The translations under genes and the position numbers were made by a program. Below the pieces are notes generated by a model, which worked only from the letters and a program-made list of their open reading frames with translations, did no database searches and was not told the origin of the DNA. Source: Candidatus Eisenbacteria bacterium (lineage in GTDB: Bacteria; Eisenbacteria; RBG-16-71-46). Taken from it: a stretch of 64,000 bases of DNA. Below are positions 14,476 through 31,775 of the stretch, piece by piece (the first letter of the stretch is position 1; the number at the start of each line of letters is the position of its first letter). The stretch lies in assembly GCA_020847735.1 (NCBI GenBank), contig JADLBL010000007.1:1-64000 (forward strand), written 5' to 3'.

Positions 14476-16325
14476 GGGGCACCGCACGGGCAACGCTCGC
14501 CACCTTCGCCGCGATCGCCCTCGCGTTCGCCGCCCTGCCGCGGACCGCGGCGGCGATCAACGCCGACCCACGTCCGGCGCAGTTCGTCCAGCCCGACGGC
14601 AGCCGGATCACCCTTTACCTGCGCGGCGACGAGTGGCTGCACTGGCAGGAGGACGCACAGGGATATCCGGTCGTGCAGGTGAATGGGGAGTGGCGCTACG
14701 CCCGCCAGGGCGGAAGCGGCGAGCTGGTCGCGACCGACGCGGCGGTCGGCCGCTCCGACCCACGGGCACTCGGTCTCGCGAAGGGGGGGCCCCGACCGGG
14801 CCCCGAGGCGCGCGCGCAACGGCTCGCGCGCACGAACCTGTCACGTACGCGCCCGGCACCCGCGGCGACCACGCCCATCGGCGTGGTGAAGAATCTCGTG
14901 ATCCTGTGCCTGTTCTCCGATCAGACCGTGGAAAACAGCGGGCGCGCGCCTTCGGCCTACGATTCGCTCTTCAACCAGGTGGGCTCGACGGGCTTCAACG
15001 CTCAGAGCGGCAGCGTGCGCGACTATTACTCGCAGGCGTCGTACGGACTGCTCACGCTTCAGAGCACGGTACTCGCCTGGGTGACGCTGCCGCACGAACA
15101 AGCGTGGTACGCCAACGGTGGCTACGGGTTCCCGAATGCGGCCAATCCGTATCCGAACAACGCGGCGGGCATGGTGCACGACGCCCTCGCGCTGGTGGAC
15201 GGGGTGGTGAACTTCGCCGACTTCGATCAGAACAACGACGGTTACGTGGACGCCATAGACTTCATCCACTCCGGCTATGGTGGCGAAGTGAATGGCAACG
15301 GCAACGGCACGATCTGGTCGCACAAGGGCAACCTGAACAACACCTTTGGCGGTGGCGAGTGGTCGAGCGCCGACCGGAACGCGAACAACGTCAACGTCAA
15401 GGTGGACCTGTATCACACCGAGCCGGCGCGCTGGGGCACGAGCGGGCCGGACCTAGTGCGGCTCGGGGTGATCGCGCACGAGACCGGGCACTTCTTCGGC
15501 CTGCCCGATCTGTACGACTCGGACTACACCAGCTGGGGCATCGGCAACTACTGTCTGATGGCGAACTCATGGGGCTGGGACCAGAGCCAGCTGTATCCGC
15601 CGCTGCCTTCCGCCTGGTGCCGCATCCAGCTCGGCTGGGTCGTGCCGGGCGGGCTCAATACTGCGGGCACCTTCGCGCTGCAGCCGGTCGAGCATTCGCC
15701 CAGTATCCTGCGCGTGGACCTGCAGATGCCCGGCAACGAGTACCTGCTGATCGAGAACCGACAGCCGGAGGGTTACGACCAGCAGATTCCGCCGGGCGGG
15801 GCCGGGCTCGCCATCTGGCATATTGACGAGAATGTCGGCAGCAACGACAACGAGGGGTATCCCGGCCAGAGCGGCTGGCCCACGAACGGCAATCACTTCC
15901 ATGTCGCGCTGCTGCAGGCCGACGGCGACTACGACCTCGAGAAGAAGGTCAACAAGGGCGACGCGGGCGACCTGTGGCACGACGTGGCCGGAATCGCGCT
16001 GGACCAGGCTACGGTGCCGTCCACGAACAGCTACTCGGGAAGCTTCGAACCCAGCGGTAACGAACTCGCCGTCGTCAGCAAGATCAACCCCGCCGACAGC
16101 AGCATGACGGTCCATTACAGGCCCGCCGCATGGGTGGACTTCAGCTACGGCGGTCCCCAGAACGGTAGCTTCGAACAGCCGTGGTCGTCCCTGGGCAACG
16201 CGATGGCGCTGACGCCCGCCGACTGGGCGGTAATCTGCAAGGGAGGCATCACCGGGGAGCGCCCGACGCTGAACAAGGCGATGATGCTCAAGAGCTATCC
16301 GACGCCCGTGCTGATCGGCCCGTGA
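14472..16325 (+). CDS. M6-family zinc metalloprotease, exported
   Basis: 617 residues. Signal peptide to about residue 30, propeptide-like segment with YLRGDEWLHWQEDAQGYPV, then the catalytic domain. Zinc-binding HExxH is at His336-Glu337-His340 in VIAHETGHFFGLPDLYD; the following GLxD and downstream SWGIGNYCLMANSWGWD fit immune-inhibitor-A/M6 proteases. A beta-rich C-terminal region follows (QPVEHSPSILRVDLQ, LIENRQPEGYD). Unlike many relatives it lacks a FlgD-type sorting domain at the end. ATG 14472 overlaps the previous stop (ATGA). Secreted or surface proteolysis is inferred. Confidence 0.9.
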   Translation: MRGTARATLATFAAIALAFAALPRTAAAINADPRPAQFVQPDGSRITLYLRGDEWLHWQEDAQGYPVVQVNGEWRYARQGGSGELVATDAAVGRSDPRALGLAKGGPRPGPEARAQRLARTNLSRTRPAPAATTPIGVVKNLVILCLFSDQTVENSGRAPSAYDSLFNQVGSTGFNAQSGSVRDYYSQASYGLLTLQSTVLAWVTLPHEQAWYANGGYGFPNAANPYPNNAAGMVHDALALVDGVVNFADFDQNNDGYVDAIDFIHSGYGGEVNGNGNGTIWSHKGNLNNTFGGGEWSSADRNANNVNVKVDLYHTEPARWGTSGPDLVRLGVIAHETGHFFGLPDLYDSDYTSWGIGNYCLMANSWGWDQSQLYPPLPSAWCRIQLGWVVPGGLNTAGTFALQPVEHSPSILRVDLQMPGNEYLLIENRQPEGYDQQIPPGGAGLAIWHIDENVGSNDNEGYPGQSGWPTNGNHFHVALLQADGDYDLEKKVNKGDAGDLWHDVAGIALDQATVPSTNSYSGSFEPSGNELAVVSKINPADSSMTVHYRPAAWVDFSYGGPQNGSFEQPWSSLGNAMALTPADWAVICKGGITGERPTLNKAMMLKSYPTPVLIGP

Positions 16326-29410: not shown

Positions 29411-29586
29411 CGTTGCAAGGACTCCGGGTTGGCCTGCCGGGAGCATATGGGATCGGCGCGGGATGGCGCCATGGTCGCGGTGTGCGGCGATCGCGATCCA
29501 TGTTCATGAGCAGACGCGCGGACGCCGGCGGCGGCAGGACGAATGAAGCCGCCAGCTCGCTGGTCGCGGCCATCGCGAGAGCGTCG

Positions 29587-29727
29587 CCGGGGCCGCGGCG
29601 CGCTCGATGGCCTCGCCGTCGGGCGGCGGCATCCTGCCGCCTTGCCCTCCTCGCTGGGCGCTTCCACCGCCATCCCTGGCTACGGAAGCGCTTCGCAGCG
29701 AGGCCATCGAGCGCGCCGCGGCCCCGG
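29587..29727. repeat. Palindromic element A: perfect 30-bp inverted repeat with a conserved loop core
   Basis: Left arm 29587-29616 and right arm 29698-29727 are exact reverse complements over 30 bp; the loop is 81 bases. Inside the loop CGGCATCCTGCC (29627-29638) and CCGCCATCCCTGGCT (29667-29681) are identical to, and have the same 40-base start-to-start spacing as, the cores of element B on the other side of the sugar transferase gene. GGCGGCATCCTGCCGCC also forms a small hairpin. No encoded protein is evident. Confidence 0.85.
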
Positions 29728-30009
29728 CTCCTGTCGCGTACACACTTCCCGTGCTGATGGGGTCATGCGGGGCTGCCCGCCTGGGGATGTTCCTTGCGGG
29801 CGCCGGTGGGGCGAGGGTTCGGAGGGTTTGCTTCACGCGGTTTTCGAGGGAGACGTCGGGGAGTGCGCGGGCGGCGGCGACGCACTCGCGGTCTCGGGGC
29901 AGCGGGCGGCTTCAACCCTGTCCAGCGGCCTCCGAATCGAATCGTCCTTCCGCGCGCCGCTCGCACCGGCGCTACTTCCGCCCCGATTCCGGCGCCGCGC
30001 CCTTTCGGC

Positions 30010-30015
30010 TACATT
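30010..30015 (+). promoter_or_regulatory. -10 element just upstream of the sugar transferase ATG
   Basis: TACATT at 30010-30015 ends 8 bases before ATG 30024. Start of transcription would be within one or two bases of the ATG; no ribosome site is visible between them. The -35 (TTCCGG at 17 bases) is weak. Confidence 0.35.
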
Positions 30016-30023
30016 GCGCCGCG

Positions 30024-31421
30024 ATGTTCGCCCGAAGCCGGCAACTCTTCGCCTCCGCGATGTTCGCCGTGGACGCCGTCCTGATCGGCGGCTCGTGGCT
30101 GCTCGCCTGGTGGTTGCGCTTCCACGGCCTCGGCCTCCCGGCGCCGCGCGGGCTCGCGCCGCTGTCGCTCTATCTTTGGAGCGGGGCCGTACTGGTGCCG
30201 AGCGCGCTGCTCGTGCTGCGGACGCTGCGCCTGTACCGCTCGGCGCGAACCGCGAGGCTCGGGTCCGAGCTGCTCTCGCTGGTCCAGTCCATGCTCGTCA
30301 TCAGCGCGCTCGCGGCGATCGGCTCCTACCTTTCGCGCGGCGAGCTGTCGCGTCTCGTGATCCTGATCTTCTTCCTCACCGGATCGCTCGTGCTGTGCGC
30401 GAGCCGAGTCGTCCTGCGGCTCATGCTTCGAGGCCTGCGCAAGAGCGGCCACAACCTGCGCCACGTGCTGGTCGTCGGCACCGGCGAGCTTGCCGGCGTC
30501 GTGCTCGAGAAGATCCGCCGGCACTCCGACTTCGGGCTGCGCGTGCACGGGCTGGTCGCGGCCGACACCGCGCAGGTCGGCGCGACCGTCCACGGCGCGA
30601 GGGTGCTCGGGTCCATCGCGGATCTGCCGCGCCTGGCCGGCGAGGAGGGCGCGGAGCTCATCTATCTGGCGCTCGCACGGCCCGAGTGGCAGGCCGAGGA
30701 GGAGGCGCTCCGGCTGCTCGCCGACTCGACGGCCTCGGTGCGGCTCGTGCCCGACCTGACGAGCGCGTTCCGCCTGAACCCCAGCGTCGAGGACTTCGAC
30801 GGGCTGCCGGTGGTGCTCGTCACCGACAGTCCCGAGCAGGGCTGGAACGCGGTCGTGAAGCGCGCGTTCGACCTCGCCGGCTCGGGGCTCGGACTGGTGC
30901 TGCTCTCCCCCATCCTTCTGCTGCTCGCGATCCTGGTCCGGCTCGATTCACCGGGTCCGGTCTTCTACGCGCAGGAACGCGTCGGCATGAACGGGCGGCG
31001 CTTCCGCATGCTCAAGTTCCGCAGCATGCGAGTGGACGCCGAGGCGGCCGGTGTCGCGTGGACGACGAAGGACGACCCGCGGCGCACGAAGCTGGGCGCG
31101 TGGCTGCGCAAGCTCTCGCTCGACGAGCTGCCGCAGCTGTGGAACGTGTTCGCCGGCGACATGAGCCTGGTGGGACCGCGGCCGGAGCAGCCGCGTTTCG
31201 TCGAGGACTTCCGCGGTTCGATCCCGCGCTACATGCTGCGGCACCACGTGAAGGCGGGCATGACGGGCTGGGCGCAGGTCAACGGCCTGCGCGGCGACAC
31301 GCCGCTGGCGCGGCGCATCGAGTACGACCTGTTCTACGTCCAGCACTGGTCGCTGTGGTTCGACGTGCGGATCCTGCTGCTGACGGTCGTGCGCGTGTTC
31401 CGCGACGCGTCGGCGTACTGA
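30024..31421 (+). CDS. Undecaprenyl-phosphate sugar phosphotransferase (WcaJ/WbaP type)
   Basis: Initiates polysaccharide repeat-unit synthesis by transferring a hexose-1-phosphate to undecaprenyl phosphate at the inner membrane. 465 residues: four N-terminal membrane helices (to about 130), a CoA_binding_3 Rossmann domain (HVLVVGTGELAGVVLEKIRR), a fifth helix near 285-305, then the catalytic domain with FRMLKFRSMRVDAE, RKLSLDELPQLWNV and DMSLVGPRPEQP; the C terminus is characteristic (WAQVNGLRGDTPLARRIEYD). Only plus-strand gene in the 21-60 kb stretch and bracketed by palindromic elements. The preferred sugar (glucose or galactose) is not readable. Confidence 0.93.
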   Translation: MFARSRQLFASAMFAVDAVLIGGSWLLAWWLRFHGLGLPAPRGLAPLSLYLWSGAVLVPSALLVLRTLRLYRSARTARLGSELLSLVQSMLVISALAAIGSYLSRGELSRLVILIFFLTGSLVLCASRVVLRLMLRGLRKSGHNLRHVLVVGTGELAGVVLEKIRRHSDFGLRVHGLVAADTAQVGATVHGARVLGSIADLPRLAGEEGAELIYLALARPEWQAEEEALRLLADSTASVRLVPDLTSAFRLNPSVEDFDGLPVVLVTDSPEQGWNAVVKRAFDLAGSGLGLVLLSPILLLLAILVRLDSPGPVFYAQERVGMNGRRFRMLKFRSMRVDAEAAGVAWTTKDDPRRTKLGAWLRKLSLDELPQLWNVFAGDMSLVGPRPEQPRFVEDFRGSIPRYMLRHHVKAGMTGWAQVNGLRGDTPLARRIEYDLFYVQHWSLWFDVRILLLTVVRVFRDASAY

Positions 31422-31424
31422 GGC

Positions 31425-31472
31425 GGCTCGCGACGGTGCCGGTTCGCGACGGTGCCGGTTCGCGACGGGCAC
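31425..31472. repeat. Three 16-bp tandem copies after the sugar transferase stop
   Basis: GGCTCGCGACGGTGCC (31425-31440), GGTTCGCGACGGTGCC (31441-31456), then GGTTCGCGACGGGCAC (31457-31472), beginning 4 bases after the stop. Part of a 358-base convergent gap made almost entirely of repeats. Confidence 0.8.
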
Positions 31473-31488
31473 CGGCTCGCGGCGGGCG

Positions 31489-31637
31489 CCCCGGGCGGCC
31501 CGCGATGCAGGCGAACGCGGCCCGCTCGGCTCGGCATCCTGCCTCGCTCTCGCTGCATCCAGTCGCCGCTCCCGCCATCCCTGGCTTCGCGGCTCCTCGG
31601 ACGCACCGCGTTCGCCTGCATCGCGGGCCGCCCGGGG
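31489..31637. repeat. Palindromic element B: perfect 32-bp inverted repeat with the same loop core as element A
   Basis: Left arm 31489-31520 and right arm 31606-31637 are exact reverse complements over 32 bp, with an 85-base loop. The loop contains CGGCATCCTGCC (31532-31543) and CCGCCATCCCTGGCT (31572-31586), identical to element A with the same spacing, while the arms differ in sequence from those of A. Located between convergent genes, so it may also terminate transcription. Confidence 0.85.
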
Positions 31638-31775
31638 CTTTCGCGAGTGCGGTCGCCTGCATCGCGAGCCGCCCGGGGCTTTCGCGAGTGCGGTCGCCTG
31701 CATCGCGAGCCGCCCGGGGCTTTCGCGGGTGCGTTCGCCTGCATCGCGGGCCGCCCGGGGCTTTCGCGGGTGCGG
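31612..31775. repeat. Four tandem 41-bp repeats continuing from the right arm of element B
   Basis: Units at 31612-31652, 31653-31693, 31694-31734 and 31735-31775, each beginning TCGCCTGCATCGCG and containing CCGCCCGGGGCTTTCGCG, with only one to three substitutions between units. The first unit overlaps the right arm of element B, so the array looks like amplification of that arm. It ends 4 bases before the stop codon of the neighbouring minus-strand glycosyltransferase. Confidence 0.88.

Follow-up and report, generated by a model that had tools for sequence, protein, structure and literature searches.

A dispersed palindromic repeat of several bacterial phyla with paired GGA hairpins and arms that appear to be made on site

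RNAs that antagonise CsrA are known mainly from Gammaproteobacteria. The SELEX consensus of CsrA is RUACARGGAUGU with the GGA in a hairpin loop (PMC7652899), and CsrA sites are generally paired, as the protein is a dimer (PMC4333381). In Leptospira, no CsrB/C homologue is known (PMC8668096). TwoAYGGAY (RF01731) and Bacillaceae-1 (RF01690), both with pairs of GGA hairpins, are predicted to bind CsrA outside Gammaproteobacteria (PMC4333381). Among DNA repeats, REP/BIME and MITE-like families (NEMIS, CIR, RPE, YPAL/RU-2) are shorter than 200 bp, non-coding, palindromic, interspersed and intergenic, and YPAL insertions carry target duplications of 3-26 bp near dyad symmetry (PMC2229807). Finally, template switching in replication makes perfect hairpins and repairs palindromes (PMC8794818).

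The element described here, two copies of which (A and B) lie in a 64-kb stretch of Candidatus Eisenbacteria bacterium (the window, to whose positions the coordinates of A, B and their surroundings refer), resembles each of these systems in part. With the CsrB/CsrC and RsmX/Y/Z decoy RNAs it shares GGA in hairpin loops, a CANGGAUG-like context and more than one site per RNA, but its two hairpins sit on a three-way junction above a long, copy-specific closing stem, and it is dispersed, in up to at least 150 copies, also outside Gammaproteobacteria, with no match to any Rfam family, known CsrA-binding RNAs included. From TwoAYGGAY and Bacillaceae-1 it differs in hosts, architecture and copy number, and neither model matched it even at E up to 10. 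It has the size, non-coding character and intergenic, palindromic, interspersed nature of the REP/BIME and MITE-like repeats; its termini, however, are not conserved, it has no link to a Y1 or other transposase, and its arms seem to be inverted, not only direct, target copies. As in template-switch hairpins, perfect stems would arise in one event from adjacent sequence, with the difference that here the event seems to go together with the arrival of a conserved, mobile core. A literature search by motif letters gave chance matches only. The reading that we favour, with modest confidence, is that A and B are copies of a non-coding mobile element whose minus-strand core of ~85 nt acts as a folded RNA that binds CsrA, and whose arms are made on site.

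Two palindromes around a sugar transferase gene

Element A occupies positions 29586-29728 and element B 31488-31638, both with their sense on the minus strand. The outer arms of A (29586-29616, the 3' arm in sense, and 29698-29728, the 5' arm) are 31 bp long, 100% complementary and separated by a spacer of 81; those of B (31488-31520 and 31606-31638) are 33 bp long, likewise 100% complementary, with a spacer of 85. Two perfect palindromes with shared inner blocks had been described here in the original prediction, which gave the arms as 30 and 32 bp and overlooked both the small hairpins formed by the blocks and the tandem array at B. The first block, GGCATCCTGCC, starts at 29628 in A and 31533 in B, and the second, GCCATCCCTGGC, at 29669 and 31574; the equal spacing first reported, 40 nt in both elements, is correct. 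Each block is itself a small hairpin. By block match and fold, the minus strand reads GCCA-GGGA-UGGC in hairpin 1 (GCCATCCCTGGC; 29669-29680 in A, 31574-31585 in B) and GGCA-GGA-UGCC in hairpin 2 (GGCATCCTGCC; 29628-29638 and 31533-31543). When the minus strand is folded as RNA, both elements form a long stem that leads to a three-way junction and the two hairpins, each with GGA in its loop. The fold is much more stable than that of shuffled sequences, with z -11.2 for A and z -13.7 for B.

The two elements have the same orientation, and the arms of one are unrelated to those of the other. The right arm of B is the first unit of an array of 41-bp tandem repeats (31608-31771) found nowhere else in the genome, and its left arm is an inverted copy of that unit; arms and array are unstranded features. 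Apart from further copies of its own arm with which the left arm of B also pairs, A and B are the sole perfect inverted repeats of at least 18 bp with a spacer of at most 250 in the window.

Between them lies the gene for an initiating sugar transferase (30024-31421, plus strand), with Bac_transf (PF02397) and CoA_binding_3 (PF13727) domains; it is a neighbour, outside the element proper. A simple gene finder agrees that it is the only plus-strand gene of the 21-60 kb region. The suggestion that recombination between the palindromes could invert it fails: the arms of A and B are unrelated; the two elements have the same orientation, so that cores recombining with each other would remove the gene rather than invert it; and in a relative without B (G002) the gene and the downstream glycosyltransferase converge just as they do here. 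We therefore rule out an inversion switch.

Copies, hosts and selection on the folded strand

An exact pattern occurs four times in this genome, with further copies in two congeners. A covariance model finds at least 12 copies here and 7-10 in each of three congeners out of four, whereas the other tested genera of the family have one at most. In seven Planctomycetota MAGs, the count per genome runs from 78 to at least 150. A scan across 85,000 species returned 47 stretches from Planctomycetota (several of them titled Kuenenia; MAG titles are as deposited), Spirochaetes, Dyella, Eisenbacteria and a few others. Most share the fold, and about five matches, inside genes or without the fold, were set aside. 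A and B are thus copies of an interspersed, apparently mobile repeat found in several distant phyla. The original prediction had named a lack of further copies, or arms conserved across copies, as grounds for its rejection; copies are present in this genome and in relatives, and arms mostly differ among the copies of this genome. Its view of a mobile or structured family in which the stem rather than the stem sequence is kept gains support from the further copies, their folds and differing arms, and from covariation.

In the alignment of eight copies from Spirochaetes, both sides have changed in 25 of 43 pairs, compared with 13 after shuffling (0 of 500 shuffles as high), and among 110 Planctomycetota copies 149 cells have changed on both sides, compared with 47.7 after shuffling. 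Hairpin covariation can, as a general warning, come from mutation as well as from selection. Since template switching could be its source here, we counted isolated stem mismatches in a strand-neutral alignment, a count that separates the two because A.C is the wobble of the other strand. On the GGA strand, G.U outnumbers A.C by 22 to 6 in Eisenbacteria (p=0.004) and, in distinct contexts, by 27 to 7 in Planctomycetota (p=0.0008). The GGA itself is kept in 38/38 copies of hairpin 2 (10 hairpin sequences) and 33/36 of hairpin 1 in Eisenbacteria, and in 103/107 (15 hairpin sequences) and 104/109 (25 hairpin sequences) for the two hairpins in Planctomycetota, counts that are slightly biased by a search model trained on GGA copies, the loops being a small part of the score. 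Stems that covary, a GGA that stays and an excess of G.U over A.C together indicate selection on the GGA strand in a folded, single-stranded form. Family, fold, conservation of GGA and strand-specific selection are in this way borne out by the sequences themselves. RNA is the simplest reading of the selected strand, and structured ssDNA could account for much of the asymmetry as well. Genome-wide, simple perfect hairpins showed no enrichment of GGA loops, as the perfect stems of the element's own hairpins are shorter than the cut-off used.

Placement relative to genes is uneven. Convergent gene ends are favoured (17 of 43 intergenic placements) and divergent genes avoided (3 of 43, versus 27-31% of intergenic regions), and co-directional intergenic regions show no strand preference, with 11 elements in sense and 12 in antisense. 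In view of this absence of strand bias, we rejected the idea that the element is simply part of the 3' UTR of the gene upstream, transcribed together with it. The depletion between divergent genes, the indifference to gene orientation, the dispersal and the high copy number would all suit a REP/MITE-like DNA element without RNA function, whose folded ssDNA, GGA hairpins included, is recognised by a transposase acting in trans; GGA conservation and strand asymmetry would then reflect enzyme preference. G.T and G.A pairs are tolerated in ssDNA, which also favours such an element. Against it, the GGA context fits CsrA sites, arms made from the site are, to our knowledge, not a transposase product, and no enzyme is consistently present in the hosts. 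Y1 is missing from most of the Spirochaetes tested and from G157 and G170, which are rich in elements, and the RVT_1 reverse transcriptase is missing from G000, G001, G146, G156, G157 and G166; as movers, RAYT/Y1 and a resident reverse transcriptase are both rejected on account of this inconsistency. We consider the transposase explanation unlikely, if still worth bearing in mind. Of the initial guess of a REP/MITE-like element or structured RNA, the mobile, structured family stands, and a RAYT/Y1 connection finds no support: no Y1 gene is linked to the repeat, and the genus's single Y1 gene is also present in relatives without elements. Measured against the repeat classes themselves, a REP being a short intergenic palindrome with conserved ends, the element is interspersed and palindromic with arms that are mostly not conserved. 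It has neither the conserved terminal inverted repeats of MITEs, its terminal arms differing per copy, nor their fixed-length direct target duplication, direct copies being found in some cases only and with varied length.

Several other features recur around the elements. Head-to-head inverted pairs, ~110-230 bp apart, are frequent (G001 C73 and C61, G002 C607 and C394, G003 C113). Immediately 5' of the element, read in sense, L117, L129, L126 and L130 (in G001 and G002) share a 12-nt motif similar to CCTCGGTCGAGC. In Planctomycetota MAGs, two more small palindromic repeats, CACAGGTTGAAAACCTGTG and AGCCTGCACGGGCCATGGATGGCCGTGCAGGCT, lie beside elements (L149 ~1200-1400, L151 ~14900-15100), the latter likewise with GGA in its loop. 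A repeat centred on TATTCATGAACCGYGAGCC with inverted ends (L180 17510-17760, L119, L075) is possibly a transposon remnant family of the genus.

Arms and landing sites

In congener G003, the cores of L109 and L115 are identical (85/85), similarity outside them is at chance level, and each copy has its own palindromic arms; in this genome, the cores of L127/L131 and L120/L135 are ~95-97% identical and their arms unrelated. Each of the eight Spirochaete copies immediately follows the 3' end of a tRNA gene and shares its orientation. The order is tRNA, inverted copy of the tRNA 3' end, core, direct copy of the 3' end; in some, the terminator is duplicated too. For two copies the locus ends within the tRNA; for the other six, whose tRNA is complete, arms and tRNA match over 8-20 nt. 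As six kinds of tRNA are involved, the arm follows the neighbour. A third arm copy lies near L076, L109, L080 and L126, much as B adjoins its tandem array. It appears, with strong support from these comparisons, that arms are made from landing-site DNA.

As to how, we infer fold-back copying. A new copy would bring the core alone. Once paired, the short complementary ends of the core would serve as a primer for synthesis that runs back over the flank, and this template switch would copy flanking DNA in inverted orientation, building the long perfect closing stem at the landing site. A mobile core with target-made arms would be an insertion signature for which we found no description in the literature.

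Arms can also travel with the element or persist. One subfamily in this genome has related arms in which a block change is mirrored on both sides, and Planctomycetota copies have arms in common. The subfamily, together with the near-identical copies L117 and L129, which differ by paired changes, might suggest that arms are generally inherited and turned over rapidly in place by template switching, a process known to occur (PMC8794818), so that covariation would arise without RNA selection. Where cores are identical at 85/85 positions and arms are no more alike than by chance, there was scarcely any time for such turnover, and it would not explain GGA conservation or the excess of G.U over A.C; we regard it as improbable. 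A core that lands in ready-made long palindromes, such as terminators or other repeats, would acquire different arms as its targets differ, in keeping with the favoured convergent 3' ends, the tRNAs and terminators beside the Spirochaete copies and a further inverted repeat in the flank of L109. In 485 kb of this genome, however, nearly every long palindrome at element spacing holds the core, and the near absence of core-less long perfect palindromes there and from the window argues against landing in existing ones. Moreover, a tRNA 3' end does not of itself provide an inverted repeat of 16-22 bp with a gap in the middle. We have rejected ready-made targets, to which we assign a very small probability, and return to arms copied from the flank as the preferred account.

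A comparison of two Planctomycetota MAGs (~85-93% identical) yielded no clean empty site; most elements are common to both, and intergenic DNA is heavily turned over. At one intergenic site, an element in G146 (C26 18881-19073) corresponds to an unrelated palindrome in the other (L231 9983-10092), which is perfect, ~25 bp long and has two inner hairpins.

CsrA and the paired GGA hairpins

The element's loops read CANGGAUG or nearly so and come in pairs; the element thus shows GGA in two hairpin loops, as CsrB/Rsm-type RNAs do in two or more. Such paired GGA hairpins are a hallmark of RNAs bound by CsrA, and those of the element would most likely bind one CsrA dimer. This genome encodes csrA, as do 22 of 25 other element-bearing hosts sampled; the gene is missing from two MAGs of Treponema and from RYN_234 (Thermoleophilia), where the element match itself may be due to chance. 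In Thermoleophilia, a class with few elements, csrA is present in 34 of 119. Because csrA is common, and many csrA-bearing relatives lack the element, this co-occurrence is weak evidence. Most other genomes searched have one csrA-family gene; the Planctomycetota MAGs G146, G151, G157, G162 and G166 have four to six each.

The favoured account would have the core, with its closing stem, three-way junction and two GGA-loop hairpins, selected in the minus strand as an RNA that is either a CsrA decoy or stabilised by CsrA. CsrA binding, transcription and a decoy role are inferred. Copy numbers of at least 150 per genome in some hosts would be unusual for a decoy RNA and speak against that role. 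A search around A and B for the consensus of sigma-70 promoters and of terminators found neither, which is a weak test in this phylum. If correct, an RNA family with paired CsrA-type sites would provide a candidate CsrA sink for Planctomycetota, Spirochaetes and Eisenbacteria that is tied to genome repeats. Going further, we can tentatively picture cross-phylum SINE-like elements, with an RNA-coding core that carries paired CsrA sites and a closing stem built by reverse target copying; this is a possibility that we lean against, and it would imply that the RNA is always perfectly closed wherever the core lands. In Halioglobus (L053 7030-7091 and upstream), hairpins whose loops read AGGAT or TGGAT and whose stems differ stand in a row, with the CsrA-like ACAGGATGTA among them twice.
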